From Zopfochytrium polystomum (lineage: Eukaryota > Chytridiomycota > Chytridiomycetes > Chytridiales > Chytridiaceae), in assembly GCA_025765615.1 (NCBI GenBank), contig JAIVFJ010000241.1, positions 26,632 through 90,631 of the forward strand: 64,000 bases of DNA, written 5' to 3'. A program made the position numbers and the translations under genes. The notes beneath the pieces are model-generated. The model was not told the DNA's origin. It searched no databases and was given only the letters and a program-made list of their open reading frames with translations. Positions 966 through 60,345 of this stretch are shown here, one piece after another; the stretch's first letter is position 1, and each line of letters opens with the position of its first letter.

Positions 966-1455
966 ACCCCTACATAGTCGACTCCCTTCTCTCTCTCCCC
1001 CCCGTCGCTGGCGACGACGAGGGCTCCTGCAGCACTGTCCGCGACGAGGGGCGCTAGGTCGCGCCCTGTCCGTCCCGTCGCTATTAACCGCTCCTGTTGT
1101 ATTTGAGATTAGGTTCCTGAGATAAAAACCCCCATTTCCCTCTTCTCTCTCTTTATTCTGCGGTTGTGTTGCGCCCTCGGGAGTGCCCTTCCGTTTCCCC
1201 TCGCATCGGCCCGCGGCCCCGCGAGTAATCGGTGCTCTGGCACCGATCCTTCAGAGGATTGTCCCTCTGAATGTTCATTCTTTGTGTTTGAGACCCCTGT
1301 TAGACAGATCAGTAGGGATACTTCGTGGACTAGGCAAGTAGTAGGGTTGAAACACCCCCTAGACAACAGCCCAATAAAGTTAGTTTTAGCCTATTATTTG
1401 CTTTCCCTCACTCTAGGGCCCAGATCCCAGGGTCAAAGGAGTGTGTATAGTCTCA

Positions 1456-3564
1456 CAAACACAACTGACTGGAGCTCTTGCAGGAGGTTATCACGATCAT
1501 TTGGAAATCGCAGCGCATCGATAAAGCCTTGCAGGTTGATCTCTGAGTCCTCCCAGGGGATGCCGTACGCGCCAGCCCAACTTAGCACCTCTGTCATAAG
1601 AACTGCAAAAGAGTAAACATCATTCGCAGTGGAGACCTGCGCATTTTGAGGAAAAGGGAGGGCACTAAGTTCTGTTTGGATGCAAAACAAATACAAAAAT
1701 ACCTTTGGACGAACACTCTTCAGTTCTGGAGCCAACCACAGTATTGATCCAGCAGCTGCAGACAATGTGCTGCGAGTCATTGTCTCTGTTTTGATCTTGC
1801 TCAGGCCAAAGTCCGTGATCTTTGAGACAATCGACCCATCTTGATATGTCTTTGTGAGAAGGACGTTGAGGCTCTTGAGGTCATTGTGCATAATCTTGAG
1901 TGTGTCATGGAGATACGACATGCCAGCAGAGACTTGGATTAGGAATGTGAGACGCTGCTTGAGAGGCGTGTCCTCGTTGTCTGGGTTCAGGTAGTAGTCG
2001 TGCAGGGAACCAAGTGAGGCAAACTGCAGGGTGATTGGGATGGTCGACGAAAAATGAAGAAGAAAAATTAGCACAATACCATGCAATGAAAATGAATTTT
2101 GAATGTGATCTCATTGACATTGCACAAACCTCCAAAACCAACGAAAGGTAGTTATTGATATTGATGACGCCGTGAAATCCAATGATAAAGGGATGGCGAG
2201 ACTTTTGAAGGATGTTTGCTTCGTTGATCAGTTCGAGTTTTGATTTTTCACTCAGCTTTGACAGCTTCAGGGTCTTGACTGCGACAGGGATTGACTCCAG
2301 ATACAGACCCTTGCGCACCACACCAAATGAGCCTTCCCCAACAATGCTGTCATTGTTGTCGGAAACAACAACGTCAGTGCTTGAGATGGTGATGGCCTCA
2401 AGGCTTGTTGTGGACAGCTTGAAGATGCTTGCTGCAATGGCCTCGTGTGAGTTTGCGCCAACACCCTTGGTGAGGTCGATGTCTAATTAAGAAAACGAAG
2501 TTTGGAAAGGAAACATCAGTTGTCAGCAAAAAGAATATATAAATTGGAATTGAAAGCACAAGAAAACAGCCACTCACAAAGCTGGCCGGCAGTCACAAAT
2601 GCTGCTGCACTAAAGGCCACTTCCTCGGTGCTGGCCAAGCGCACTGGGATGATGGGCTTGTGGATGTCGTTTGCAAACTTGATCTCGAGCTTGCAGTTGT
2701 GGGAAGCAATGTAACTGTCTGAGAGGAAGGCGACAACAACTGCAGCACGACAGATGCCATCAATAATGGCCTCGTTGATGTCGCTCCCCATGTTATTTAC
2801 ATCGATCCACACACGCACATTCATGCGCTCCAGCTTGGTGACGAGTGGGCGCACGAGGTCCTTGTCTGCCCAGGCGTAGCTGATCATGGCCTGTGTGGGG
2901 GAGCAGGAAGCAGGGTGGGGATTTCGTGTGGTTACATTTTGTGTCAGTCGTGTCAATGGTGCAAGAAGAAAGTTTGTCATTGTAAAGCGAGTAAACTCCA
3001 CGTGAGCAGCGCCAAAAATCGGCAAAAATGGAAATAACGTAGTAGCAGGCCAGAGATCACGTTGCGCCGCTGCCGCTGGGTGGTGAGCCAAGTGAGGCCG
3101 GAGGATCTTTCGTTGTGGTTGGGTGTGGAACGAAGACACAAAAAAAAAAAGAAACCAACAACATAGAGAGGTTTTGTGTGGAAGAGGCGACACAGCCATG
3201 CAGCGCAAACGCCGGGTGAAAAAGGGAGAAGGAAAAAAAATGAAAGAACGTCGGACAGTGGGATCGGGGGCGGACGGGGCGAACGAGGCGGACTCGCATC
3301 AAAATCAAATTTTTTCGGCTGAGTAGCGGGCGGGGCGCCGCCGGGAGGGCGTCGTCTGCCGGCGACGGGGCGGGGGGCGGCGGAACGGTCGGGGGCGGCA
3401 TGATGGGCGCCGCCCTGGCAGTCGTGGACGGTGGCGATGTCGGCCGGTAGGGCCAGGAGCTGGTCGATGGTCAGGCCTCTGGGGATGGTGGAGAGGCGGC
3501 GGAGGACTCGGGTGGAGTCGTTGTCGTCCTTGGTGGCGGCGGCGGGGGGCGAGATCGTCGTCAT
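1456..3564 (-). pseudogene. TIR-kinase-LRR family copy A, 3'-truncated
   Basis: Five exons match the intact copy D: 3564-3298 (N-terminal segment, 89 aa), 2890-2578 (TIR), 2482-2130 (kinase N-lobe), 2023-1703 (hinge to APE motif) and 1636-about 1456 (kinase C-lobe). The TIR starts MISYAWADKD and keeps the CKLEI glutamate. The kinase has GEGSFG, VAVK, HND and DFG. Homology to the paralogues stops abruptly near 1456 inside exon 5, so the end of the kinase, the linker and all LRRs are missing. Exon frames up to that point are open. The first intron has a GC donor (GCGAGT) where B, C and D have GTGAGT. A truncated transcript could still encode TIR plus most of a kinase, but the call is a rearranged pseudogene. 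Confidence 0.8.
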
Positions 3565-11236: not shown

Positions 11237-11239
11237 GCT

Positions 11240-11380
11240 GATTGATGGGTGAAAAATTCTTCGTCGAGGTGGTCCGTCAGCTTTGACAGCTCTTGCGGCG
11301 GGGAGCCCGAGGAAGGAGAGTCCTGGGAGAGGAGAAATTCGGCGGGGACGTTGTTCGCCAGTTCGTTGTACTTCTGCATG
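11240..11380 (-). other. Possible exon fragment, GC-rich
   Basis: On the - strand the sequence after GACATGCAG opens a GC-rich frame (KYNELANNVPAEFLLSQDS, then LSKLTDHLDEEFF) unlike the AT-richer copia sequence it adjoins. Composition suggests host coding sequence cut by the copia element. I do not recognise the protein, and no partner exon is visible. The ~90 bases to its right (11380-11507) are purine-rich with an A-run and hold nothing clear. Confidence 0.25.
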
Positions 11381-11999: not shown

Positions 12000-13077
12000 T
12001 TGGAAATGACATGTTACGATCCCCGTAAGTTCTCAGACACCATTCCGAGAATTTGCTCACTTTGCCTCAGACAAAGAATTGAAGGAAGTTGGGGCTCAAG
12101 TAGCAGCTGTAGCACTCAGGGCCAACAGCACCCTCCAGAGTATTGGTCTTTCTTGTGAGTACGACCACCAGTTCTCATTCAGGGCATCAACTGTCCAGAG
12201 TTTTGTCAAGCCTTGTCCCTGATTGTGCAGATGGAAACCTCACTGATTCTGTTCTTTCTCTCATTTCTTTATTTGCACAACTTGATTGATTCCAGGGAAC
12301 GCCATTGGTCAAGAAGGTGCAAAAGCCCTGGCAGATGCCCTGAGGACCAACACCTCCCTCAAGAGCATTAATCTTTCCTGTGAGTGCATTCCCCAGTTTC
12401 ATAAAGAACGACAACCTTTCTGAGTTTTGTCCAGCCTTGTCCCAGATCGTGCAGATGGAAACTTCACTGATTCTGTTCTTTCTCTCTGTTTTTTCCGCAC
12501 AACTTGATTCATTGCAGCCAATAGCATCGGTGATGAAGGTGGAAAAGCCCTGGCTGATGCGCTGACGGTCAACAGCACCCTCCAGAGTATTGATCTTTCT
12601 TGTGAGTGCATCCCCAGTCCTCATCAGAGCTTCAAATGTTCAGAGTTTTGTCGAACCTTGCTCCTGGTTGTGCAGATGGAGACCTCGCTGATCCTTTGCT
12701 TTCTTTGTTTTCTTTATTTGCACAACGCGATTGATTGCAGGGAATGGCATTGGTCAAGAAGGTGCAAAAGCCCTGGCATTTGCCCTGAGGACCAACACCT
12801 CCCTCAAGATCGTTGATCTTCGCTGTGAGTGCATCTCCCAGTTCTCTTAAATTGTCAACATTTCAGAATTCGGGCAAGCCTCGTCCGCAACTGGGCGGCC
12901 ACAGATGGAAATCTCACTAATCCTTTTTGTTCTCACTTCCCATTTTTTTTCTCAACGTATTTGATTGTAGTGAATGAAATGGGTCCAGTAGGTGAAAAAG
13001 CCCTGGCTGATGTTGAAAAATGCAAGACCACTCTCAAGGTGCAACTGTACCCAACAATGCCAACAACGAAAAAATAA
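11997..13077 (+). pseudogene. Orphan LRR exon block of the TIR-kinase-LRR family (+ strand)
   Basis: The homology to copies B and D starts at CATTTGGAAAT (about 11997). It includes the end of the linker exon (to 12154, GAQVAAVALRANSTLQSIGLS). Three 84-nt LRR exons follow at 12296-12379, 12518-12601 and 12741-12824, each between AG and GTGAGT, with a last exon at 12971-13077 (GEKALADVEKCKTTLKV then a tail and stop). Introns match those of the tandem array, and the exon period is 222-230 bp. The repeat motif is the NLRC3/ribonuclease-inhibitor type (IGQEGAKALADAL..NTSLKSINL). There is no TIR or kinase to the left; an unrelated gene on the opposite strand abuts it. It is opposite in orientation to copy A and 10 kb away, so it is not simply A's missing end. 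Confidence 0.8.
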
Positions 13078-20200: not shown

Positions 20201-22701
20201 CAAAGGACGATGGACATGAGAAACAACACGAAGAAAAACCCACCAGTTTTTCTGACAATGAGGACGTCATTTCGTCGATAAGCTTCTCACTTGCCATGAG
20301 CTCTTCCCGAAGCGACGCCATGTCGACACCTGCATCTGCCCCACCTGCCGCGGTCTGATTCGTCAAAACGGTAGGGGCGGCTGTCATGTTCGACAGCGAC
20401 CTCATTCGGCCGATTCCAGCGGTGCGAGGAGTCCGAATAAGAGTTGGCGAGGCCCTCGAGTCGTCGTCGTCGGCTGAACGTCCGACCGGCACAAGGTTTG
20501 AAGCAGAGTCACCGGAAAGCGCGGCTCCGCCGCCTCCTGCGGCGGCCTCGTAGTTGGCAACGATCGCTTTCAGTCTCGCCACTTCTTCCTTCAACAGCCG
20601 AACGGTTTTCCCCGTCTCGTCTTCGTTAACGACAGCACGCGTCTCGATGCGCTTGGCGCGTTCAGCAAAACGAAGCGTCGAAAGGGTCTCGTCGTACGAC
20701 GTGTCTGAGGGGGACAGCGCCGCCAGCATCACAGTCTTGGCGTTCCCACCCAGAGAGTCCTTCAAGAGCCACGTCAGGACCGAGTCGCGGTAAGGGATGA
20801 AGGCGGCGGCAGCTTCGGGCTTAAGCTTGCGAGTGCTTGGCCGGCGGTTGAGATTGGGACCCGCACCAGCCGCTGCAGAGCCTGCTGGGCCACCGGCACT
20901 TTCGCGGCTGGAGCCGGCCTCAGCAAGCGCGGAAATCACTTTACCCAGTGTAGTTAGACTCTTGTTGATGGCAGATCCCTCTTTTAGGCGGACTCCCTTT
21001 GCTCCCGTGGCATCGGCACGCTCGGATCCAGCAAGGTCCACAAGGGAAATACGAGAGGTGCGTTCGGTACGCTGAGTGGCGCCGTTGGCTCCAGGCGCGG
21101 GGGTCGTCGCAAGAGGCTCGGTTCTCGTTTGGGTGAGAACGAGTGTGAAGACGGCGTGGGAACGTGACGAGGTTTCATTCATGTTTGTGGATGCGACGAT
21201 GCGTGCCTGAATTTTCGCGTGGTCGTGAAATGTTGGTGTTAGGTGTGCCTCTCAAAACAACTCGCTCCTCTTGAACCTTATTCCCAATCTCCATGAGCCT
21301 CTCAACGCTTTCGTAGGAAGTGACTGCTAATTTTGACAGATCTTCTACGTAGGGTCCTAGTTGCGGGTGCTCGCGAATGCGAAGGTTATTTTTGTTCGAC
21401 GGATTCAGCAGATCGCGGACGCGTTCGTTGTAAATCTGCGAACATGTTTCAAAGAATCAGTTGCGAAGGGGAAAATGCGTCCTCGAGCCAAGCAACCTTC
21501 ACTGCAGCGAGCAGAAATGAACTGTACCTCAATGTAGCTGACGGTGACTTCGTAGGTAGTGTTTGGCACGGTGTCGGCACTGATTCGTTGAAAAATGTCC
21601 TCGCAAACACGAGGAATGACGCCTCTGTTCGAAGGGGATCCCATCATCGTGTAACTTTTGCCGCTGCCCGTCTGGCCGTAAGCAAACAAGCAGACATTGT
21701 AACCACCAAAAGCGTGGTCCAGCAGCCCCGATCCAACCGTGGTGTAGACGGTCTCCTGCGACGCGCAGTTGGGGCTGTCGGGGAAGCAGCTCCAGAACAC
21801 TCCGTCGAACGTGAAGTTTTTGATGTCGTCTGCCTGGGGCGAGAGCGGAGAAGAGTCGTTGGAGGACGCTCCACCGCCTGGAGACGAGCCATTTGTGAAG
21901 GCGGTGGACGAGGACAGGTGGCTGATCGTGGAAATGACGGAGGTGCGATCGCCGGGCGTTCCAGAGCGCGGCGGGAGGCTTCCTTGGGAGGGCTGTGGAG
22001 GAGCGGGGCCGCCGCCGCCGGCCGCTCCGGGAACCGACGACGCAGGGAGGGAGGGGCGGCAGATGGACAGCGTATCGGGGGACTGTGTTTCTTTCAGGAT
22101 GATCTGAGCGTTGAGCGAAATTTCGCGCGAGTTGAGGGGGCGGATCCGGACGTGAACCTGGGAGTGCGAACGGGGAGGTGGGCGTATGAAAGGATCAATC
22201 AGAAACGGGTGGGTTGGGTCATCAACACGCCGTGTGGGAGGTGCTGGGAAGGGCGATTACTTATGGCGGCGCAGCGCTGGGCAAAGCGATCACCAGCACT
22301 CGGCGCGGCAGCAAAGCAGCTGGGAACGAGATCGGAGGAGGAGTGTCGGAGCGTGATCCAGCGCTGGGTGGCTTTCCTAGGCGCCTCTCCCACCCTCCAC
22401 CATCAATGCCGCCGCATTCATCCAATGAAGGCTTGCGAAGGCGAGACGCTCTCCGAAATCGACAGAGAAACGGAGCGTCCTGATGCGCACCCTAGCGCTT
22501 TGCCTCCTGCTCGCTCAAGGGGGAGGCGGGGCTCATTGCATGCAATCGGATGGAAGGGGGGGCGGGTGGTCGTGGAGGAGAGGTCGCGCTGTCAGTGCCT
22601 CTCACCTGCACTTTGGACGATCCGTGCGGGGCGTGCGCGGCGTCGTCTGGGTAGCCGCCACCGTCAAGGGGCGCCGCGGCGGCTGCCGGGTCTAAAGGCA
22701 T
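14248..22701 (-). CDS. Kinesin-3 family motor protein (Unc-104/KIF1-like)
   Basis: Plus-end-directed microtubule motor for vesicle or organelle transport. Six exons join in phase: 22701-22606, 22157-21528, 21435-21277, 21206-20244, 20156-18309 and 18210-14248, giving 2552 residues. The N-terminus [14 protein letters not shown] is the kinesin start. The P-loop GQTGSGKS is near 193, switch I NETSSRSH 305-312, switch II DLAGSE 352-357, and [12 protein letters not shown] follows loop 12. An FHA domain lies at about 660-790 ([20 protein letters not shown]). A KIF1-type central region and long Ser/Gly-rich stretches follow, then a C-terminal PH domain from about 2419 ([21 protein letters not shown]), which in this family binds phosphoinositide membranes. 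Oddities are an ~80-residue Ser/Gly/Pro insertion in the motor (about 62-143) and a loop 12 that lacks the usual lysine run. It is longer than animal KIF1A (about 1700 aa). The ATG at 22701 is the only one giving a proper start. Confidence 0.93.
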
Positions 22702-25715: not shown

Positions 25716-28700
25716 TCAGAATCCAATCTTTACCACAGGTGTCTCAATTATGTCAAAGTTGTCGTCAGCAGTGTACCGCCCGGGCGTCATGTGCTTCATG
25801 CCCTTCATTCGCAGAACGTACTCGCCTGGCGGTAAAGAGACAATCGGCGCCAGCATTGTCGGATCCGCGATGACGTCGCCACGCCAGTACCACCGCTGCG
25901 GAGTCGTGATCCCGGCCCCCCCGACGGGCGAGTTCCGTCGACCGATACCGTACTGGATGTACGACGCCCGGTCGTCCGACGGCGATCCCGCCAGTACGAG
26001 GTACCCCTGGTTCGTGCCGTGTCCGAGGTTCAACTTGTTCAGCTGGCTTTTGACAGTCTGGTTCGTTCCGACGTACTCGGCCTCAAAGTACGCCAGCCGG
26101 GTCGTGGTGGCGTAGATCGGCGCAACCACTATGGGGTCGGTGGTAAGGTTGACTTGGTCGTTTGCGGACAAAGCGGCGGCTGGGGGACGCGGCGGACCGC
26201 CCGCGAACGAACGGTAGAAGCCGGAGGAGTAGCCGAACGTAGTGAGCGCGTTGCGTGAGAAGATGCCGGCATCCGTCCAGTTTCCGACCATCCCCGCGTA
26301 CGGCACGGTCACCGTGTCGTCGTCAAAGTTGTTTGTGACCCTGACGAACCCGGAAAAGATTGGGAAGCGGCGAGGATCGGCGTTCGGCGGTTGCGTCACG
26401 TCAATGTTGACTTTGACCGACGCGTTCGCCTGCACTACGGTCGAATACACGGCTTCTTGCTTGTTGCCGAAACCGAGAACGGCGTAATCAGTGGTGTATT
26501 TGGTGCTCGAGGCTGGTTGTATGAAATCCTCAACCCCGTCGAACATGTACACCGTGGCAGCCCCGACATTGGTGAATGTAAACGCGACAGCCGAGGAGTA
26601 GTAGCTGGTGAGCGTCAGGGTGTAATGAGTCTTGGAGGTAAACTGAGAGTCGTTCAACGCCAAAAATGAAGGTGTGATGACGCTTTTCGAGGTAATGGTG
26701 CTGTAGACATTCACGAGGCCTGCTCCCTGCAGCGCAACCGAGTCCATCATATCGCTCTTGTACATTTTAGTCGGAATAGCGTTGTTTTGGAATGCCGTGC
26801 GTACGGTTTCAAACGTCGGTTTGACGCCTGATTGACGACTTTGGAGGTAGAGCGCCACGGCTCCTGCAAAGTATGGTGAGGACATTGAAGTACCGGTTTG
26901 GAGCGAGTAAGGAACTGCGAGGTTTTGCTTCTTCGCAGCGTAAGGAGAGATGCACGAGTAAACGTTCGACCCGATTGCCCCAATATCTGGCTTGATGTGA
27001 AGCTCGGCGTCCAGGCCAGTTGAAGTAAAAGTGGACGCCGTCGCCCCTGAGGGATCGGAGAATTGGCTTAGAGTTTGCTTCGAAATGACAACCTTTCTCG
27101 TTGAAGAGGCCACAATCGCAGCGCCAGCGTTCGATGGGATAGATGCAGTAGGGATAGGCCCGCCAGTCAAGATGATGTTTCCCTCCGTGTTCATATAAAC
27201 AAGGCAGTTCTTTGCGCCAGCTCTCTGAGCGTTGGTGCAACGAACGACCGAGCCGCAGCCGCTACCGAAACGAAGCAAAACCGTTTTCCCTTTGGCACCA
27301 GCACCAATAGTAGTGCAGCCGTCATCCACGATATCGTTTTTGATGGCATCCGGGTTGTTCACAAAGATGTCGAGGGATTCGGAGGGAACTCCAAAGTCGC
27401 TGTTCGTGGCGGCAGCAATCCACGAGAAAGGTACGTCGTCGACGGTGATCGTCGTCTGCAGATTTGACAGGCCGTCGTAGCTACGGGTGTAAGTGTTAGT
27501 ATCCGCTGATAATCCAGTATTTGCGTGAAATTAAGCGTCTAGGTACCTTCCGACCCCAAACCCGGTGAGTGATCCCCCGGGATTGCCGCTTGACATGTAA
27601 CCCTGGGCGCCCTCGTTGCCGTTCGAGGCAACAACGATCACGCCTACGAGTTCGATGAGAAGTGCGCACAGAGGAGTGTATTCCCTCTCGGGGTCATAGC
27701 AATCACAGACACGGCAACTCACCAGCGGCACTGACGCGGTCGACCGCGGCTGCCTCTGCTTGATCAGGTAGCGACGGTCCATTGCCAATACTTCAGCAGC
27801 AACGAAAAAAATTTTAGGAAGGAAGCGTTATTGTAAATCACCTTACACAAACCTCAAATTGATGATATCTGCGCCGTCGGCGGCCGCCTGGTAAATAGCA
27901 GACGCGATGATATCATCGAAGGTTCCATCTGCGGCGCAGCCGAAGATCCGGTACGCGCCGATGGTAATGTCTGGAGCTACGCCCGACCACGGCATTTCAG
28001 GCAAAAACGCCGGGTCAGTGATGTTGAGCGCGTTGCCGGCTAAAATTCCAGCCACGTGAGTGCCATGGGCGCCGTCCGAGCAGTCGTCGATGGGGTCGTC
28101 GTCCATAGCGACGGTGGGGTTTCCAGCGCTGAGTGCGTCGCCGACTAGGTCCAGACCAAACGCGACCTTGCAGCCCGGGCCGAAGCAGCCGCCGAGTGCC
28201 GGGTGCTTGTAGTATACGCCCGTGTCTAGGATGGCGACCTTGACGCCCTTTCCGGTAAGGCCCAGCTTGTTGCGGGCATCGTTCACGCCCGTCAGGACGT
28301 GTATGGTTTCGGGGGCGGCGCCGTCGTTCCGCGGTTGAATTTGAATGGCCTTTGGGGCTGACCGCTTCGACACCTTGAAGGAGTTAACGACGGGGGACTT
28401 AATCTTTGCGACAATGCTCGCGGCTGGAAAAAAAGGTTGGGAGGAAGGTTGGGAGGAAGGTTAATAACGCGATGGGAAGGGTGGTTTTTTGGGTGGATTT
28501 GTGTTGTGTTTTTCCATTGTGTGTGAGACCGAAATGAAAAATTGCGCGGGTGGATGAATTCCCTTTTTTGGGTTTGGTCTGTTTTTTTTGGGTGTTTTTG
28601 AGGAAGGGAAAGGGCCAACACCACACAAGCGCCTGGCGCGCTACCGCCCACATGCACACCTTCACATTCGCATAGGGTATTTACATAGGCATCCGATTGA

Positions 28701-48143: not shown

Positions 48144-51100
48144 TTATTTTTCGTTGCTGTGCTTTGAAATATTTTTTTTTTCCTTGAGAGTGGTCTTGGC
48201 CTCTACAGCATCAGCCAGGGCATTTTTACCTTCTTCACTAATATCATTGTCTGCAATCAAACAAGTTGTGAGAAAAAAAGGAAAAGAGAGGACAAATAGG
48301 GTAAGTGAGATTTCCATCTGCCGCTGCCCAGTTAAGGGCAAGACTTGCCCAAATTCTGAAAGGTTGACGCTCTCTATGAAAACAGTGGGGATGAACTCAC
48401 TGTGTAGATCAATACTCTTGAGGGAGGTGTTGGTCGTCAGGGCATCTCCCAGGCTTCTGCACCTTCTTGACCGATCCTGTTGTCTGCAATCAATCGCGTT
48501 GTGCGAATAAAGCCCAGAGAGAAAGAGCAGAATCAGTGAAGTTTCCATCTGCACAATCAGGGAAAAGGCTTGACAAAACTCTGAACAGGTGATGCTCTGA
48601 GTGAAGACTTGGGGATGCACTCACAAGAAAGATCAATAATCTGAAGAGTGCTGTTGACCCTCAGGGCATCTGCCAGGGCTTTTGCACCTTCTTGACCAAT
48701 GCCATTGACTGCAATCAATCGAGTTGTAAAATATTAGATTACAGCCTCTGTTGCGATGACCAGCATTACCATTGCTTGGAGCCTGCACCTGATGCACTGA
48801 CTTGTTTGCATGAATATCTGAACCGAGCAATTCATTGGCAGCAAGAGTTTGTTCCGCTTGCTCATTCACTAGTGTCGGCGCTGAAGACAGCTCTTGTGAT
48901 TCTTTGTTTCCACTGTTAGTTTTTCCTGCCAATCATCTTGTGTTCTTACCGTTTGACACAATTGTCGTGGGATTGAGAGTTTCCTCAACTGTGAGCGTTT
49001 CTGCAAATTCTGCAAAATCCGTCGTCGCAGCTGACCTGAAAGAGACTCTTGTAGTGGCATTTCTTTCCAGCTCGATTTCGTGAAGGAGGCGAATATCAAC
49101 AACGTCTTGCTGTGGGAAGGCACCTTTGGGTGCATCTGTCAATCACAGGTGAATGGATGATGTAAGATCTTCAACAAACCTTCAACAGTCTCTGCAACGT
49201 CAGGCTCCTTCTGCACAAGCTGAGTCAGCGCGTTGAGCTCATGGTAAATTGCGGAAAAACGAGGTCGGTCTGAAATTTCCAGGCTCCAGCAGAGTTTGAA
49301 CAAGCTGGCAAGCGCAGCACCAGCTACTGTCTCCGCCTGGAACACCTCCGACTGAAGCCTTTGCAAGAGCTCATCACGCTGCTGTGGGTCCCGCAGCACG
49401 TCGATGAAGCCATGCAGGTTGATCTCTGTGTCCTCCCAAGGAATGCCATAAGCGCCGGTCCAACTTATCACCTCTGTCATAAGAACTGCAAAGGAGTACA
49501 CATCGTTTGCAGAGGAGGCCTGTGTATTTGGAGGAAAAAAAGTAAATGCTCTGTTTGGATGCAAGGCAGTCACAACAAACTGCGATAAAAAAAAATACCT
49601 TTGGAGAAACCCTTAGTTCTGGAGCCAACCACAATATTGAACCAGCAGCTGCAGACGATGTGCTGCAAGTCATCGTATCGGTTTTGATCATGCTCAGGCC
49701 AAAGTCAGTGATCTTTGAGACAATCGACCCATCTTGAAATATCTTTGTGAGAAGGACGTTGGGGCTCTTGAGGTTGTTGTGCGTAATCTTGAGTGTGTCA
49801 TGGAGATACGACATGCCAGCAGAGACTTGGATAAGGAATGTGAGACGCTGCTTGAGAGGCGTGTCCTCGTTGTCTGGGTTCAGGTAGTAGTCATGCAGGG
49901 AACCAAGTGAGGCAAACTGTGGGGTGATTGGGACGGTCCACAAAAAAAGAAAAAAAAAATTTAACTACAATACTACGCAATGAAAATGAATGTGATTTCA
50001 TGTTAGCACAAACCTCCAAAACCAACGAAAAGTTGTCATTGATAGTGGTGACACCATGAAATCTTATGATGAAAGGATGGTGAGACTTTTGAAGGATGTT
50101 TGCTTCGTTGATCAGTTCGAGTTTTGATTTTTCGCTCAGCTTTGACAGCTTAGACGGCTTAATGGTCTTGACTGCGACAGGAATGGTCTCAAGATACAGG
50201 CCCTTGCGCACCATGCCAAATGAGCCCTCCCCAACAATGCTGTCCTCGTTGTCGGAAACAACGACGTTGGTACTTGGGATGTGGATGGCTCCAAGGCTGG
50301 TGCACGACAGCAGGAAAATCCTTGCTGCAATGGTCTCGTGTGAGTTTGTGCCAACACCCTTGGTGAGGTCGATGTCTAATTCAGGGAACGAATTTTAGAA
50401 AGGAACAATCAGTTGTCAGCAAAATAAACAAAAATGGAGTGGAAAGCACAAGAAAACAGCCACTCACAATGCTGGCTGGCAGTCAAGAATGTTGCTGCGC
50501 TAAAGACCACTTCCTCGGTGCTGGCCAAGCGCACCGGGATGATGGGCTTGAGGATGTCGTTTGCAAACTTGATCTCAAGCTTGCAGTTGTGGGAAGCAAT
50601 GTAACTGTCCGAGAGGAAGGCAACGACGACTGCAGAGCGACAGATGCCGTCAATCGTGGCCTCGTTGATGTCACTCCCTATGTTATTTACATCAATCCAC
50701 ACACGCAGATTCATGTGCTCCAGCTTGGTGACGAGTGGTCGCACAACGTCCTTGTCTGCCCAGGCGTAGCTGATCATGGCCTGTGCGGGGGAGCAGGAAG
50801 CATGGTGGTGATTCCGTGTGGTTAGGTTTTGTGTCAGTAGTGTCAATTGTGGCGGAACGAAGAGACAAAAACACCAAAGAAACAGAGAGGTTTTGTGTGG
50901 AAGAGGCGACACGGCCATGCAGCATAAACGACGGGTGAAAAAGAGAGAAGTAAAAATGAAAGAACTTTGGACGGTGGGATTGGTGGCGGACTGGGTGGAC
51001 TCACAGCAAAATCAAAGTTTTTCGGCTCAGTGGCGGGCGGGAGGGCGTCGTCTTCCGGTGGTGGTGACGAGACGGGATGGGCGGCTGCGGCATGATGCGC

Positions 51101-51268
51101 GTCGCCCTGGCTGTCGTGGACGGTGGCGAGGTCGGCCGGGAGGGCCAGGAGCTGGTCGATGGTCAGGCCTCTGGGGATGGTGGCGAGGCGGCGAAGGATT
51201 TGGCTGGAGTCGCTTCCGTCGTTCGCGGCGGCGGCGGCGGCGTCGGGCGGCGGTGGGATCCTCCTCAT
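48144..51268 (-). CDS. TIR-kinase-LRR family copy C, predicted pseudokinase, LRR frameshift
   Basis: Exons: 51268-51005 (88 aa N-terminal segment), 50780-50468 (TIR), 50375-50014, 49916-49599, 49519-49180 (kinase), 49135-48950, 48925-48770 (linker), then LRR exons 48708-48625, 48483-48401 and 48250-48144. All frames join up to the first LRR. The catalytic loop reads HNNLKSPN where A, B and D have HND, so the catalytic Asp is Asn; DFG and VAVK are kept. The second LRR exon is 83 nt: one base missing gives a stop (after EMP), so the product would end about one and a half LRRs in. It lacks the two linker exons (STRVDMKP and ALKRYIRGK) found in D. It may be a decaying gene or a shortened TIR-pseudokinase. 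Confidence 0.75.
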
Positions 51269-52225: not shown

Positions 52226-53126
52226 TCACCATTCCACCTTGAGAGTGGTCTTGCCCTTCACAGCATCTGCCAGGGCTTTTTCACCTTCTTGGCCTATTTC
52301 ATTCTCTGCAATAAAACAAGTTGTGAGAAAAAAAGGAAAAGAGAGAACGAAAAGAATTTGTGAGATTTCCATCTGTGGCTGCCCAGTTAAGCACAAGGCT
52401 TGCCCAAATTCTGAAAGGTTGATGTTCATTATGAAAACAGGGGGGATGCACTCACCGCGAAGATCAACACTCTTGAGGGAGGTGTTGGTCCTCAGAGCAT
52501 CAGCCAGGGCTTTGGCACCTTCTTCACCAATGGCATTCCCTGCAATCAATTGCGTTGCGCCAATAAAGTGAGAAAGCAAAGGATCAGTGAGGTCTTCAAC
52601 TGCACAATCAAGGACAAGGCTTGACAAAACTCTGAACAGTTGATTCTCTGAATGAAGACTGGGTGATGCACTCACCCCAAAGATTCATACTCTGGAGGGA
52701 GCTGTTGACCATCAGGGCTTCAGCCAGGGCTTTTGCACCTTCGTGACCAATGCCATTGTCTGCAATCAATCAAGTTGTGCGAATAAAGTAAGGACAGGAA
52801 GAAGAGAATCAGTGAGGTATCCATCTGCACAATCAGGGACAAGGCTTGATGAACTCTGCCCAGTTGATCCTTTGAATGAAGACTGGCGGGATGCACTTAC
52901 AGCGAAGATTAATACTCAGGAGGGAGGTGTTGACCTTCAGCGCATCAGCCAGGGCTTTTGCACCTTCTTGACCAATGCCATTGTCTGCAATCAATCAAGT
53001 TGTGCGAAGAGAGAAAAGAGAGAAAGAACAGAATCAGCGAGGTTTCCATCTGCACAGTCAGGGACATGGCTTGATGAAACTCTGCACAGTTGATGCTCTG
53101 AATGAACAGTGGGGTATGCACTCACC
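52226..53126 (-). repeat. Copy D: exon-per-LRR block
   Basis: Linker exon end (53126) followed by 84-nt LRR exons at 52984-52901, 52759-52676 and 52539-52456 and the terminal exon 52305-52226. Starts are spaced 225, 220 and 234. Every exon is phase 1 in and out, so units can be added or lost without breaking the frame. Confidence 0.85.
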
Positions 53127-55895
53127 CCAAAGATTGATACTCTCAAGGGTGCTGTCGGCCCTCAGTGCTTCAGCTATTACTTGAGCCCCAGCATCCTTCA
53201 ATTTGTTGTCTAAGGCAAAGTGAGCAAACCTTGAAATGATGTCTGAGAACGTACATTGGTCACCAAAAGAACTTATTTCGAAATGTGTGACACCATAAAA
53301 GAGTTTTAAAATTCTTTTTCCGCTGAGAAATGTTTGCGCAAGTGGACCAAGAAGTCTCTTGCCTCGAATATATCGCTTCAGTGCTTCGGGGATTTCCAAT
53401 CAATATGTTGCGAAAGCAGTGCAGATGTTTTTCACCTGACACATCTTTGGGTTTCATATCCACTCTGGTGGTTGATTTTGATTGTGACAGTGCTGGTTTT
53501 GAAGTAGCACCATTGTTGTGAGGTGTTGGCAGTGGAGTCACAGGTAGATCCGGTGCTGATTTGCTAACAGCATCAGTACCAGTGTTTGTAGAGTTGACAC
53601 CAATCGGGGTCTCTGCTGTCTTCACCAAGTCTGCAAAAATATTAGATTACAGCCCACGTTGGAATGATCAGCATTACCATCTCCTGGAGTCTCTACCTGA
53701 TCAACAGATTTGCTTCCTTCATCATCTGAACACTGCAAGGCAGCTTCAGGTGCAACTGTGAAACACAGGTGAATAGATGAAGCGGGAATTTCAACTAACC
53801 TTCAGCAGTCTCTGCAACGTCAGGCTCTTCCTGGACAAGCTCAGTCAGCGCCTTGAGCTCATAGTAAATTGCGGAAAAACGAGGTCGGTCTGAAATTTCC
53901 AGGCTCCAGCAGCGCTTGAACAAGCTGGCAAGTGCATTGCCAGCTACTGTCTCCGCCTGGAACACCTCCAACCGAAGCCTTTGCAAGAGCTCATCACGCT
54001 GCTGTGGGTCCCGCAGCGCGTCAATGAAGCCTTGCAGGTTGATCTCCGTGTCCTCCCAAGGAATGCCGTATGCGCCTGTCCAACTTAGCACCTCTGTCAT
54101 AAGTACCGCAAATGAGTACACATCGTTTGCAGAGGAGACCTGCGTATTTGGAGAAAAAGTCAAGGCTCTGTTTGGATGGAAGGCCTTTACAACAACAAAC
54201 TGTGAAAAAAAATACCTTTGGAGAAACCCTCTTCAGTTCTGGAGCCAACCACAATATTGATCCAGCAGCTGCAGACGAAGTGCTGCGAGTCATTGTCTCA
54301 GTTTTGATCTTGCTTAGGCCAAAGTCAGTGATCTTTGACACGATGGACCCATCTGGAAATATCTTCGTGAGAAGGACATTGAGGCTCTTGAGGTCGTTGT
54401 GCATAATCTTGAGTGTGTCATGGAGATACGACATGCCAGCAGAGACTTGGATTAGGAATGTGAGACGCTGCTTGAGAGGCGTGTCCTCATTGTCTGGGTT
54501 CAGGTAGTAGTCGTGCAAGGAACCAAGTGAGGCAAACTGCAGGGTGATTGGGACGGTCGACGAAAAACGAAGAAAAAAAAATTAACTCAATACCATGCAA
54601 TGAAAATGAATTTTGAATTTGATCTCATGGATATTGCACAAACCTCCAAAACCAACGAAAGGTTGTCATTGATATTGACGACGCCGTGAAATCCAATGAT
54701 AAAGGGATGGCGAGACTTTTGAAGGATGTTTGCTTCGTTGATCAGTTCGAGTTTTGATTTTTCGCTGAGCCTTGAGAGCTTCAGGGTCTTGACTGCAACA
54801 GGAATCGACTCAAGATACAGGCCCTTGCGCACCATGCCAAATGAGCCCTCCCCAACAATGCTGTCCTCGTTCTCGGAGACAACGACATCGGCGCTTGGGA
54901 TGGTGATGGCGTCAAGGTTTGTGTGCGACAGCTTGAAAATCCTTGTTGCAATGGCCTCATGCGAGTTTGCACCAACACCCTTGGTGAGGTCGATGTCTAA
55001 TTCAGGGATCGAATTTTAGAAAGGAACGATCAGTTGTCAGAAAAAATAAACAAAAATGGAGTAAAATAACAAAACAGCCACTCACAAAGCTGGCCGGCAG
55101 TCACAAATGCCGCTGCACTAAAGACCACTTCTTCGGTGCTAGCCAAGCGCACCGGGATGATGGGCTTGTGGATATCATTTGCAAACTTGATCTCAAGCTT
55201 GCAGTTGTGGGAAGCAACGTAACCGTCCGAGAGAAAGGCAACGACAACTGCAGAGCGACGGATGCCGTCAATGATGTCCTCGTTGATGTCACTCCTCATG
55301 TTGTTCACATCGATCCAAACACGCATGTTCATCTGCTCCAGCTTGTCGACGAGTGTGCGCACAAGGTCCTTGTCGACCCAGGCATAGCTGACCATGGCCT
55401 GTGCGCGCGAAAGGAGAAGCGGGAAGGGTTGTCATTGAAAAGCGAGAAAATTCCACGTGAGCAGCGCCAAAAATGGAAATAACGTAGTTGCAGGGGGCGC
55501 ACGGATCACGCGCCGCCGCTGTCGCTGGCGAAAGGAGACGGGACGAAGAGACAAAAAAAAAAAAAAAAAAAAAAAGAAAGGGACTTCGGACGGTGCGCCT
55601 CGGGGGGCGGACGAGGCGGACTCACATCAAAGTCAAATTTTTTCGGCTGAGTAGCGGGCGGGGCGCCGCCGGGAGGGCGTCGTCTGCCGGTGGCGGCGGG
55701 ACGGGCAGTGGCGGGATGGGCTGCGGCGACATGATGGACGTTCTGGCCGTCGTGGACGGTGGCGATGTCGGCCGGGAGGGCCAGTAGCTCGTCTATGGTA
55801 AGGCCTCTGGGGATGGAGGCGAGGCGGCGGAGGTCTTGGCCGGAGTCGGTGTCGTCGTTGGCGACGGCGGCGTCGGACGTCGGGATCGTCGTCAT
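52226..55895 (-). CDS. TIR-TKL kinase-LRR receptor-like protein, intact copy D
   Basis: Twelve exons join in phase to 819 residues: 55895-55626, 55398-55086, 54996-54644, 54536-54216, 54139-53800, 53755-53678, 53630-53436, 53383-53126, 52984-52901, 52759-52676, 52539-52456, 52305-52226. Residues 1-90 are a family-specific segment (IPRGLTIDELLALPADIATV). TIR 92-195 has MVSYAW, RVWIDVNN and CKLEIKFA, with Glu159 at the NADase-glutamate position. Kinase is about 235-535: GEGSFG 243-248, K264, HND 358-360, DFG 383-385, APE 410-412; the Arg of HRD is Asn, i.e. non-RD. Linker 533-680 is polar. Five LRRs of ribonuclease-inhibitor type end the protein (IGQEGAKALADAL). No signal peptide or transmembrane segment, so likely cytosolic. 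Role inferred as ligand-sensing signalling; closest logic is plant/animal innate-immune receptors, but without an NB-ARC/NACHT domain. Confidence 0.85.
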
Positions 55896-56699: not shown

Positions 56700-57277
56700 C
56701 TTGGCCGATTTTTAGCGTTTCCCCTTTCTTTGTTTTTCTTATCGAACGCCGGTAGCAGCCCACACTTTCCCACTCTGTGTATATATGTATGATTTTCTGT
56801 TTTTCTTCTGCGATTCCTTACACCCGATCGACCCACCCACGCCCACCCACGCCCACACACTCCCCAGCGCTCTCTCTGCTACATCCACTTTTTTTCTTCC
56901 TTTTTTATCCCGTTACCTCAAAAAGCCCAAACTTTCCTTGGTTGTTATTGTTGTTGTTGTTGTTGTCGTCGTCGTCGTCGTGCCCAACTTCGTTATCACC
57001 TCCAGTGTTTTTGTTTGTTTCTTTTTGTTTTTTTTTGTTTCTTTTGTTTTTATTTTTAAATTATTATTGTTATTTTTTTTTTTTTTTTCTGCTCTGGTGT
57101 TTTCAACCCGGCCCCTTTCGTCTCCCACACACAAACTCACGGTATATGTCAGCGTTTTCCTTCCGTTTCGTATCAGTTTCAATTGGTTTTTGTTTCTCCT
57201 TCACCACTGTACCGTTTATTTGAATTGTTACTTTTGTCCCTCCTTTTTTCTGTTTTCGTCCCCTCTGTTCAAGTCGA
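56700..57277 (-). repeat. 3' flank module of a lost fourth array member
   Basis: Ordered blocks of the array's 3' flank (TTTTTCTTATCGAACGCCGG, CCTCAAAAAGCCCAAACTTTCCTTGGTTGTT, TATGTCAGCGTTTTCCTTCCG, CTGTTCAAGTCG). It stops inside the block TTCAAGTCGcccaca at about 57277, where truncated Ty3 integrase begins. The matching gene copy that should follow is not in the window. Confidence 0.65.
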
Positions 57278-60200
57278 CTGGGTTAAATTCTGCCAGCGGA
57301 AGGAGGGTGGGCCAATCATCCTGTTGATAGCTGACATAGCACCTTAAATACTGCTCCAGAGTCTGGTTTGTTCTTTCTGTTTGTCCATCAGTCTGAGGGT
57401 GATAAGCAGTTGACAGTTGAGATTTGATTCCAAGGGCTGCTGTGAGTGCTTTCCAAAATTGAGATCTGAACTGAGGTCCTCTGTCACTGATGATTGACTG
57501 AGGCAGCCCATGGAGCCTGAATATGTGCTGCAAAAACAGGTCTGCTGTTCCTTGTGCATCTACATCCTCAGTGCAGGGGATGAAATGGGCCAACTTTGTC
57601 CTTCTGCAGATGACAACAAGGATAGAGTCAAATCCATGGGATGGGGGCAGTTTCACAATGAAGTCCATGGATATTGATGACCAAGGGCTGATGGCAATTG
57701 GGAGGGGCTCCAGAAGTCCATAGGGCTTGTGTCTGCTGGATTTGTTTCTTTGACAGGTTTCACAGCTGCTGACATAGTTCTTGATGTACTTCCTCATGCC
57801 TGGCCAGTAGAAGTCTCTGGAAACAAGCTCATATGTCTTGTGCTCTCCTGGGTGTCCAGCTGTTGCTGCATCATGCCTTGTCTTGAGTATCTCAAGTTTT
57901 TCCTCCTCTTGGCTGATTTGAATCTTGTGAGGCTTGGGGTCCTTGGAAATAGCATGGGCCCACACACTGTCAGGAAGCAATGAAAGGTGTGTCTTGGATG
58001 GTGGGGTGAAACCATCTCCCCCTTCAGGTGCAAGGTCTGTTCTTCTTGACAGGGCATCAGCCACAGTGTTAAGGTGGCCAGGAGAATAGCACAGCTTAAA
58101 GTCATACTCAGAGAGCAGTTCAGCCCACCTGGCATGCCTCTGCTGGAGCAACCTCCTTGCCCTGAAGAAGGTGAGGTTCTTGTGATCAGAATAGACAGAG
58201 ATGCCTTTAGAACCAGCCAAGTAGTGTCTCCAGAATTTGAATGCTTCCACAATTGCAAGCAACTCCTTGTCATGGACTGTGTAGTTACACTCAGCACTGT
58301 TCAGCTTCCTGGAGTAATATGCCACTGGATGCAGAGGAGCGGAGGGGTCCTGAGAGCTTGGCTGGGACAGAACAGCACCAAGGGCATAGTCTGAGGCATC
58401 AGTTTCCAAGGTGAAGGGAAGCAAGGGATCCACATGCTTAAGGAGTGGTGCACTTGTGGTTGCTGTCTTAAGAGCTAGCCAGGCTTGCTCTGCTGCTGGG
58501 GTCCATTCAAACTTGGTGGTCTTCTTGGTGAGATGAGTGAGAGGCTTGGCTATGGCAGAATAGTTGGCAATGAATGTTCTGTAGAAGTTGCAAAACCCAA
58601 GGAAGCTTCGAACATCCTTGATGGAATTTGGAGCCTTCCATTCAAGAATAGTTTGGATCTTGTCTGGTGCCATGGAGATCCCTTTGTCAGACACAATGAA
58701 CCCCAAAAACTCAATGGAGGTCTTGTGGAATTCACACTTCTCCAGCTTTGCATAGAGGTGATGCTGTCTGAGTCTCTCCAAGACAGTCTTGACATGTCCC
58801 ATATGGGTTGCAGTGTCGGACGAAAATACCAGGATATCATCCAGGTAGACAATGACAAAAAGGTCCAGAATATCCCTGAAGATGTCATTCATCATGCCTT
58901 GGAAAATAGCTGGAGCATTGGTAAGTCCAAAGGGCATGACCAAGTACTCAAAGTGACCGTGTTTGCATCTGAAGGCAGTCTTCCATTGATCCTGGGGCTT
59001 AATTCTGACCAAATTGTAGGCACCTCTGAGGTCAATCTTGGAAAATATCCTTGCATGGCTCAGTTTGTCCAGTAATTCAGAGATGAGAGGCAGTGGATAG
59101 CAGTTCTTGACTGTCATCTCATTGAGATCTCTGTAGTCCACGCAGGGTCTCAGCCCCCCATCCTTCTTCTTGACAAAAAAGATGGGAGCTCCAGCTGGTG
59201 ACTTGGAAGGTTGGATGAATCCCTTGTTCAGCATTTCTTCAATGTATTCTTGGAGGGCCTTGGCTTCTGGTGGAGAGAGGTGGTACAGTGGCTTGAAAGG
59301 TGGGCTGCAAGTTTCATCCTTGAGTGGGATTTCACAGTCATAAGGTCTCTGAGCTGGTAGAAGGTCTGCCTTGGTCTTGGAAAACACATCAGCATAAGGG
59401 AGATATTCTTTTGGTAGCTTGGATGCCAGCAAAAGGTCTGATGGGTCCAAGTTCCTGTGCTCTTCAGCAGTGGGGCTTGAATTCTTGACTGGGAACTGTG
59501 ATTCTTGAATCTTTGACTGAGAGTTCTGTTCTTGGCAAAGACTGTGAGCTGTGGAACTTGAATCTTGAATGTGGGCTGTGAACTGTGGTACTTGAATCTT
59601 TGACTGTGGGTTCTGTGAACTAGAGTCTTGGCCATGACTGTGAGCTCTATGAGCTCTACTTGAATCTTGACTGTGAACTGCGAACTGTGGAACTTGAGTC
59701 TTGGCTGGCTGTGAATCTTGAATGAAGGGCTTGAGAGCATGAGACTTGGGGGCTTGACTTGAGTTTTGGGTGACTGTTCCGATTGGTGGAGGTTGGACTT
59801 GACCAGTGACCCAATCAATGGCAGGGTTCTGGGCTTGCAGCCATGGTAATCCCAGGATGACAGAGAATGTGGATGAGCCAAGATCCAATACTTCCAGGTT
59901 GGCCATGGATGGTGGAAAGTCTTGGATGTGGAGGTTTAGCTTGGTTTCATGGCTGATTTCCTTGAACAGAGCATGATTGGCAAAGTGGACCTTGGGGTGT
60001 GGATTTCTTGATGGTGGGAATGGCACAAGAATTGACAAGGGTGGCATCAATGATGTTGCAGGATGATCCAGAGTCAATAAGTGCCTTGGTTGTGATGGTT
60101 GACTTGGGTGAGAGTTGAATCTTGACATCCATGGTGAGTTGGTGGGGCTTGGAATCTGAGGTGTTTGTGGTGCTGGTGGTGGTGATGAAACAGGGGCAGC

Positions 60201-60345
60201 TTGGAGGAGGGTCCAGGGAATTGCCCCTCAGTGAGCCTGGACCTGGGAGTTTCGGTGCTTCTTCAGGCAGTTGCATCAGGGAAGGTGTTGTTTGGGTCAG
60301 ACATGATGGCAGAGAGTAGTAGGAGAGGGTGAAGTGAATTATGAT
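57278..60345 (-). mobile_element. Ty3 chromovirus pol, 3'-truncated, nearly gag-less
   Basis: Read from 60345. A short start MSDPNNTFPDAT (60306) runs into a stop. A protease region follows with ALIDSGSSCNIIDATLV, one frameshift near 60000, and then a long frame 60128-57278. This carries the end of the protease, reverse transcriptase (RPCVDYRDLNEMT, AIFQGMMND, VIVYLDDILVFS), RNase H (LETDASDYALGAVLSQ, HKNLTFF), the integrase zinc module (H..H..CETCQRNK) and most of the DDE core (WSSISMDFIVKL, IISDRGPQFRSQFW, STAYHPQTDGQTERTN). Catalytic residues are kept, so decay is recent. Sequence breaks off in integrase at LLPLAEF (57278), and the chromodomain end is absent. Between the LTR and protease there is room for only a few dozen Gag residues. 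A Pro/Gln/Ser-rich run with repeated SQDSSSQ-like units lies between protease and RT. Confidence 0.85.

Follow-up and report, generated by a model that had tools for sequence, protein, structure and literature searches.

Within a 64,000-nucleotide stretch of the genome of the chytrid Zopfochytrium polystomum (hereafter the window; bases 26632-90631 of the 90631-base contig C241, in a genome of 80 Mb and 761 contigs) lies a gene, copy D, that joins a TIR domain, a protein kinase and a set of leucine-rich repeats (LRRs) in one chain. Copy D is real and unbroken at the DNA level, and it belongs to a family whose members end their TIR exon at a common point, build their LRRs from 84-nt exons in phase 1, conserve their signalling exons and vary at a few LRR codons. 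Judged from its sequence, D is probably a cytosolic recognition receptor that derives from a chytrid TIR-NB-ARC-LRR protein, with a kinase in place of the NB-ARC switch and a TIR output gated by that kinase. A broader proposal, put forward only tentatively, is that the family could represent an innate immune receptor free of any STAND ATPase (signal transduction ATPase with numerous domains), in which a kinase replaced NB-ARC, phosphorylation gates the TIR domain and the LRR surface is renewed by duplication of near-identical 84-nt exons whose differences lie chiefly at codons facing the ligand; the change would have occurred in an early-branching fungus.

As an earlier note on this DNA had proposed, copy D (minus strand, 55895-52226) assembles into an intact protein of 819 residues from 12 exons; 11 of 11 introns are GT-AG and the only stop is the terminal one. 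The start of exon 8 is supported by the paralogue P0002, and the Pfam run was made on a 761-residue version in which 58 residues of exon 8 are missing. In that version TIR_2 matches residues 92-204 (E 3e-21, 76.5 bits against a cut-off of 28), PK_Tyr_Ser-Thr matches residues 241-513 (E 1.5e-44) and LRR_6 is found at E 5e-20, the five LRRs of D being C-terminal. These hidden Markov model (HMM) matches, which the earlier note had proposed as a check, agree with its account of a TIR, a tyrosine kinase-like (TKL) kinase and LRRs in a single chain. The absences that it reported also hold. Pfam gives no NACHT or NB-ARC in D at E<=0.1, so that the central domain of a nucleotide-binding (NB) LRR receptor (NLR) is not found; the highest 19-residue Kyte-Doolittle mean is 1.40, as against 3.14 in a membrane-bearing TIR protein used as control, which reveals no membrane segment; and no signal-peptide-like N-terminus was seen by eye. 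The internal LRR exons are all 84 nt and phase 1.

The identity of the first domain was also approached through structure. The TIR exon of D, modelled by AlphaFold2 together with 18 relatives from the same genome, has a mean predicted local distance difference test score (pLDDT) of 91.2, and the top solved matches returned by Foldseek are the TIRs of TLR15, RPS4 and MyD88 at probability 1.00 (best E 2.9e-4, template modelling scores 0.64-0.71), with the TIRs of Roq1, RPP1, MyD88 and TLRs among the structural matches. Profile and model therefore agree that this domain is a TIR, as had been claimed. The glutamate of the CxxE motif, which is catalytic in TIR NADases, is invariant in 19 of 19 rows of the family alignment A1; in D it is E70, and it aligns with those of RPS4 and the CRISPR-associated TIR Cat1. 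The TIR of D carries this putative NADase glutamate, and NAD+ cleavage is its most likely predicted activity. Turning to the kinase, the VAVK lysine, the catalytic-loop aspartate, DFG and APE are all kept, while HND replaces HRD and makes the kinase non-RD. The best 60 of 2052 sequence matches in the PDB are a mix of tyrosine and TKL kinases (EGFR, CTR1, Eph, SYK, MLK), and a KSxN motif presumably places the domain in the TKL group. By these motifs it appears to be a TKL-like, active-looking kinase.

Copy D is one of many such genes. Profiles built from the family were scanned over the window and 20 ten-kb loci, which hold the best 25 of 85 TIR_2 matches, and then over seven smaller loci; the census also includes L034, L037 and L038, to which kinase matches or weaker TIR rows led. 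TIRs with a kinase behind them number at least 18, of which four lie in the window and 14 outside it, spread over 14 contigs in all. LRR exons stand in line at 11 or more of these places (copies B, C and D, L016, L017, L020, L021, L024, L025, L031 and L034). TIR-kinase loci with no LRR in line are copy A of the window, L014, L015 (at a contig end), L019, L026 (most of the kinase 4.2 kb off), L037 and L038 (broken). A leader related to exon 1 of D is detected by profile in other TIR-kinase copies, and every TIR and kinase exon is matched in one piece in D, L020, L021, L024, L025 and L031. HND, DFG and APE occur together in 15 of the 18 catalytic-exon matches scanned; the three that lack HND are copy C (HNN), a kinase 5 kb from the TIR of L029 (HHD) and a fragment at L017 (motif missing). 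Three annotated proteins, P0002, P0003 and P0004, each unite TIR, kinase and LRR. Across the TIR and kinase, the ratio of nonsynonymous to synonymous divergence (dN/dS) between D and eight copies (12 loaded) is 0.12-0.28, with dS saturated in the comparisons with L020 and L024. Recurrence of the domain order at other loci, together with this ratio, makes the architecture of D more than a matter of chance.

The LRR exons of the family are equally regular: eight loci of the kinase class (D, B, L016, L017, L020, L021, L024 and L034) have a length of 84 nt and phase 1 throughout the check, which also covered L027, L028 and an orphan array in the window. Their number is changeable, since L020 has 20 LRR exons and L021 five despite a dS of 0.033 over TIR and kinase, which is rapid growth or loss of the array. 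Among other forms, P0001 at L014:5172-8467 (-) has a TIR followed by two complete tandem kinase domains. Kinase relatives that have no TIR (L033, L035, L036 and L039) were set aside from the family; at L033, L035 and L036, which also have no LRR, the kinase is followed in each case by a related open reading frame (ORF) of 268 amino acids and by internally repetitive frames.

A second class of genes bears on the origin of the kinase form. At L018, L022, L023, L027 and L028, a STAND/NB-ARC ATPase and then LRR exons come after a TIR exon of the same family; this is the layout of TIR-NB-ARC-LRR proteins (TNLs). Three of these loci, L022, L023 and L028, clear the Pfam cut-off for NB-ARC; L018 clears that for DUF7779 alone, the STAND families falling under theirs; and L027 is split across two frames, one of which gives NB-ARC at 22.6 bits, just under the cut-off. 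The annotated protein P0125, on the L028 contig, scores 69.4 bits for TIR_2, 25.4 for NB-ARC (cut-off 23.5) and 95.9 for LRR_6, with DUF7779 just under its cut-off, and pattern matching finds a P-loop, Walker B, LITTR, GLPL and MHR. In P0126, the protein annotated at L027, TIR and LRR both exceed their cut-offs and the P-loop, LITTR, GLPL and MHR are present; Pfam gives it no NB-ARC at E<=0.001, and the annotated model does not contain the Walker B stretch. The ATPase part of P0125 resembles bacterial NB-ARC-TPR proteins at 109 bits in NCBIfam, where the cut-off is 300, and the likenesses found by NCBIfam and by PADLOC (P0125, P0127 and P0003) are all partial or below cut-off. L022 and L023 lie about 40 kb apart in opposite orientation on contig C250, and their TIR sequences are identical.

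In a third class, at L013, L029 and L030, Sel1 repeats come after a TIR exon of this kind. In 21 of 23 TIR exons a T after one and the same codon precedes GT, a common phase-1 donor (as delimited here, the TIR exons of L027 and copy C stop one or two residues before this junction), and the junction is used in the annotated proteins P0122 of the Sel1 class and P0125 of the NB class. In L027 and L028 the LRR exons, too, are 84 nt and phase 1, apart from the first of the seven L028 repeats, which misfits. In a tree of 25 TIR rows the NB forms lie outside, with support of 98/92 for the Sel1 forms, 96/89 for Sel1 and kinase forms together and 85/88 for all kinase forms. The tree suggests that the kinase replaced the NB module, which is also the simplest reading. 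The earlier note had ascribed to D an NLR-like logic that dispenses with a nucleotide-binding domain; sister genes that have the same kinds of TIR and LRR exon and carry STAND/NB-ARC at the site of the kinase support that description more strongly than before. Aside from these classes, weak TIR_2 matches occur within about 1 kb of NACHT matches on contigs C18, C67, C436, C428, C418, C57, C11, C98, C19, C43 and C120, which suggests that a separate TIR-NACHT class may exist; C241 carries no NACHT match among the 86 listed.

Within several LRR arrays the repeats are nearly identical save at four codons: x5, x7, x8 (which is split) and x+1, which follows the conserved Asn. With the first and last repeat of each array omitted, the nonsynonymous difference (pN) in L020 is 0.496 at these codons, compared with 0.030 at the other 24, 0.039 for synonymous differences and 0.043 in the introns. 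When the exon bases of L020 are ranked one by one with no codons preset, the top nine for variability belong without exception to x7, x8 or x+1. Heterozygosity, computed with the same omission, is 0.443 for the 12 bases of the four codons, 0.030 for the other 72 exon bases and 0.036 for the introns (p 1.6e-12), and the corresponding tests in B, L016 and L017 give p 1.2e-7, 1.8e-5 and 9.9e-6. Values of pN at the four codons and in the introns are 0.473/0.038 in L021, 0.521/0.120 in B, 0.437/0.107 in L017, 0.516/0.220 in L016, 0.424/0.232 in D and 0.558/0.527 in L024, so that six of seven arrays lie above their introns, L020 and L021 by about twelve-fold. A codon-set test, which omits the first repeat and any repeat that has no AG/GT frame, asked how many of the 20475 possible four-codon sets are as variable as the preset four. 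The counts are 1 in L020, 1 in L016, 10 in L021, 26 in B, 86 in L017, 221 in L024, 286 in the orphan array and 472 in L034; in the NB class they are 18 in L028 and 232 in L027.

In the model of P0003 the LRR part has a pLDDT of about 90 from residue 731 on. The strand of each repeat spans x22, I and x5, extends to x7 in some of them, and is followed by x8 and x+1; LRRs of the ribonuclease-inhibitor type bind their ligands through the strand face. The sensor codons vary above the introns while the TIR and kinase exons are conserved, and this pattern may reflect repeated selection or a focused mutational process. A recognition role for the family of D, which we infer, is supported by this variation of LRR codons above the intron level. 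With the NB-ARC sister genes and the hypervariable LRR codons taken together, the case for the receptor is stronger than the one made in the earlier note.

A mechanism can be proposed on this basis. The TIR, kinase and LRR exons would be spliced together, and the variable LRR face of the product would bind a partner, which may be a protein of a pathogen, a parasite or another non-self source, or a self protein altered by them. Binding would cluster the copies or free the kinase, whose autophosphorylation could take the role that nucleotide exchange plays in NLRs, making the kinase the gate. Clustered TIRs might then cleave NAD+ or make signals of the ADP-ribose type, leading to cell death or defence. 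Duplication and loss of LRR exons would in turn renew the recognition surface. Such a system would make it testable what the NB switch contributes, if a kinase can replace it between the same sensor and effector, and LRR arrays of up to 20 near-identical exons that vary at few codons would offer a compact natural system for the origin and renewal of a recognition repertoire.

Known systems that resemble D include genes of the chytrids themselves. P0125 of Zopfochytrium, and likely P0126, L018, L022 and L023, share with D the TIR family and the end of the TIR exon, as well as 84-nt phase-1 LRR exons in L027 and L028, but have STAND/NB-ARC and a DUF7779-like region where D has a kinase. The same holds for the TIR family and the ATPase of P0127 and P0129 from Physocladia obscura, which contain TIR, NB-ARC (33.8 and 30.7 bits), DUF7779 and one LRR at the very end; both models are marked partial, on contigs of 5.5 and 3.0 kb, and they are probably truncated TNL-like genes in a second chytrid genus. 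Plant TNLs (RPS4, ROQ1, RPP1) resemble D in an N-terminal TIR with the CxxE glutamate, a C-terminal LRR sensor and a multigene family, and they combine a variable LRR with a conserved signalling part. D differs from them in having a kinase and no NB-ARC, in LRRs of the ribonuclease-inhibitor kind encoded by 84-nt exons, and in belonging to a fungus. Animal NLRs of the NLRC3 type have ribonuclease-inhibitor LRRs as D does, and LRR-only coverage of about 20% underlies most matches listed; unlike D, those among the matches listed have NACHT and neither TIR nor kinase. The fungal NLRs with WD40, ANK or TPR repeats (HET-E, HET-D, HET-R) share with the family of D highly conserved repeats that change in number, but D has no NACHT or NB-ARC, LRRs instead of WD40, ANK or TPR, and TIR instead of HET. 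The repeats of HET-type NLRs are described as being under positive selection in PMC4986451 and PMC12881547.

Plant receptor kinases, the LRR-kinases of Batrachochytrium and the metagenome proteins P0038 and P0114 combine LRR and kinase as D does but have no TIR; in P0038 and P0114 the LRRs stand ahead of the kinase. With no transmembrane segment by hydropathy, D is also unlike membrane receptors such as TLRs and receptor kinases. PMC2939053 describes four LRR-kinase genes in Batrachochytrium dendrobatidis that, like D, give no evidence of a membrane region, so that chytrids were already known to pair LRR with kinase. Searched with a TIR profile, 5.8 billion proteins gave 28 matches, a search with the TIR alone gave seven, all from Zopfochytrium, and one with TIR, kinase and LRR was dominated by LRR proteins. 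In these three protein searches, which scored 8000, 303 and 8000 candidates (the listing for TIR, kinase and LRR holds the best 120 of 463), no protein with both TIR and kinase from outside the Zopfochytrium genome was found among the matches listed. A rotifer protein named as a kinase (P0136, pats1) was rejected, as its Pfam list shows a TIR and a COR domain and no kinase domain.

In the literature, no fungal protein with NB-ARC and LRR together could be identified according to PMC2939053, the LRR motif occurs in 0 of 5616 fungal NLR candidates in PMC4986451, a 2025 review (PMC12881547) treats the NB-LRR architecture as apparently absent from the fungal genomes analysed, and PMC9815663 reports TIR in NLRs of Chytridiomycota. 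Titles and abstracts, in a search whose coverage mostly excludes subscription journals, did not yield the combination of TIR, kinase and LRR in fungi or chytrids; as far as searched, TIR-kinase-LRR is new as an architecture. The Zopfochytrium genome holds an annotated TIR-NB-ARC-LRR protein, four more such loci and a larger kinase sister family. If the broader proposal is true, no LRR-type NLR would have been reported from a fungus before, as far as searched, and TIR-NB-LRR proteins would have a further origin outside plants.

Several observations weigh against the receptor explanation. The excess of variation at the four codons amounts to only 1.8- to 4.3-fold in B, D, L016 and L017, and L024 shows none; D itself has only three usable internal repeats, and there 485 of the 20475 sets reach the variability of the preset four. 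These codons were chosen once the arrays had been viewed, which means that arrays other than L020 are no blind hold-out, and the synonymous difference (pS) is also high there, so that the excess gives no formal dN/dS proof. Many copies are damaged: B, L016 and L017 have frame breaks within kinase exons, copy C has HNN for HND, A is cut short and L038 is broken. The TIR of L034 (4532-4912, -) is divergent and interrupted, with a glycine/aspartate-rich insertion and no CxxE glutamate, and does not enter A1. The annotated models P0006 (L021), P0123 (L016) and P0124 (L017) end before the LRRs. L024/L025 and L020/L021 are close pairs and may be near-duplicates. The TIR tree rests on 106 columns, its bootstrap is unsettled, L018 and L022 form long NB branches, and midpoint rooting puts the root on the pair of TIRs in L032; the full-length P0003 model is weak outside the LRRs (mean pLDDT 52.9) and was not used there. 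Among the matches listed, no relative with TIR and kinase was seen outside this genome, and the form may therefore be young. Finally, enrichment of the family near contig ends is not significant by the Kolmogorov-Smirnov test (p 0.095, n=25; p 0.114 with one per contig, n=20).

Some of the same facts can be read as the mark of an LRR-guided signalling kinase with a non-immune task in zoospores, development or nutrient sensing, in which the TIR serves only for oligomerisation and the LRR differences reflect relaxed constraint and unequal exchange. The intact kinase motifs, the adaptor TIRs (MyD88, TLR) among the structural matches, the expansion and contraction of LRR arrays and the position of the variable arrays B, L016 and L017 in frame-broken copies would all fit. 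This alternative is nevertheless unlikely. Relaxed constraint alone cannot give about twelve times the intron divergence at four codons while leaving the other 24 at the intron level, and the twelve-fold arrays, L020 and (for pN) L021, have unbroken TIR and kinase exons. The invariant CxxE glutamate in A1 and the TIR-NB-ARC-LRR layout of the sister genes also speak against it. A still less probable alternative is that these are allorecognition or killer-type genes, which police self and non-self between strains or nuclei or kill competitors. The clustering of the copies, their differences in repeat number and their partial decay would fit, and fungal NLRs with conserved repeats control heterokaryon incompatibility according to PMC12881547, with repeat evolution treated in PMC4986451; against a killer role, TIR-kinase loci spread over 14 contigs exceed the need of a single killer locus. 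Least likely of the three, and very improbable, is an annotation artefact or a dying family, in which neighbouring exons stay unjoined in the transcript or D has recently become a pseudogene: the annotated models that stop ahead of the LRRs, the damage to A, B, C, L016, L017 and L038 and the omission of D from the annotated proteins listed by the protein searches would suit it, but P0002, P0003 and P0004 join all three parts, the domain order is kept in 11 loci with 84-nt phase-1 LRR exons in the eight checked, and D has a dN/dS of 0.12-0.28 and no internal stop.

The setting of copy D agrees with the earlier description of a tandem, partly decayed subtelomeric array. Four TIR-bearing copies, A to D, all lie on the minus strand of the window; A, B and C are damaged, only D is unbroken, and a telomere-type repeat stands at the end of the contig. 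The first 181 residues of P0002 are 100% identical to the window at copy B, and the annotated protein P0005 is probably copy A. The features are collected in Table 1.

Table 1. Features of the array in the window, with the exons of copy D in order of transcription.
Feature	Position in window	Strand	Basis
Copy A: TIR and kinase, third kinase exon cut short, no in-line LRR	1454..3507	-	profiles
Orphan array: four family-type LRR exons without TIR or kinase	12106..12817	+	profiles
Copy B: TIR, two frame breaks in kinase exons, 7 LRR exons; annotated as P0002	41029..45569	-	profiles
Copy C: TIR, kinase with HNN for HND, LRR exons partial or broken; decayed	48183..51202	-	profiles
Copy D exon 1: start codon and N-terminal leader, residues 1-90	55626..55895	-	splice model
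Copy D exon 2: whole TIR domain, residues 91-194, CxxE Glu	55086..55398	-	TIR_2, AlphaFold2
Copy D exon 3: post-TIR linker and kinase N-lobe, VAVK lysine	54644..54996	-	Pfam, motif
Copy D exon 4: kinase catalytic loop HND, DFG, APE	54216..54536	-	Pfam, motif
Copy D exon 5: kinase C-lobe	53800..54139	-	Pfam, splice model
Copy D exon 6: linker	53678..53755	-	splice model
Copy D exon 7: Ser/Thr/Pro-rich linker	53436..53630	-	splice model
Copy D exon 8: pre-LRR cap and LRR 1	53126..53383	-	splice model, P0002
Copy D exon 9: LRR 2, 84 nt, phase 1	52901..52984	-	splice model
Copy D exon 10: LRR 3, 84 nt, phase 1	52676..52759	-	splice model
Copy D exon 11: LRR 4, 84 nt, phase 1	52456..52539	-	splice model
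Copy D exon 12: last LRR, terminus TLKVEW-stop, likewise in copy B	52226..52305	-	splice model
Telomere-type (TTAGGG)n repeat, contig end	63796..63982	+	

Other genes of the window are of different kinds. Between D and the telomere repeat, a long ORF at 57228-60227 (-) encodes reverse transcriptase, RNase H and integrase domains and is taken here to be a Ty3-like retroelement, and a likeness to the RVT_2 reverse transcriptase, under its cut-off, lies at 10190-11380 (-). ORFs at 14248-21251 (-) with kinesin motor, kinesin-associated, DUF3694 and PH domains probably form one kinesin gene, and a subtilase-type peptidase with PA and Fn3-like domains is encoded at 25716-27530 (-).

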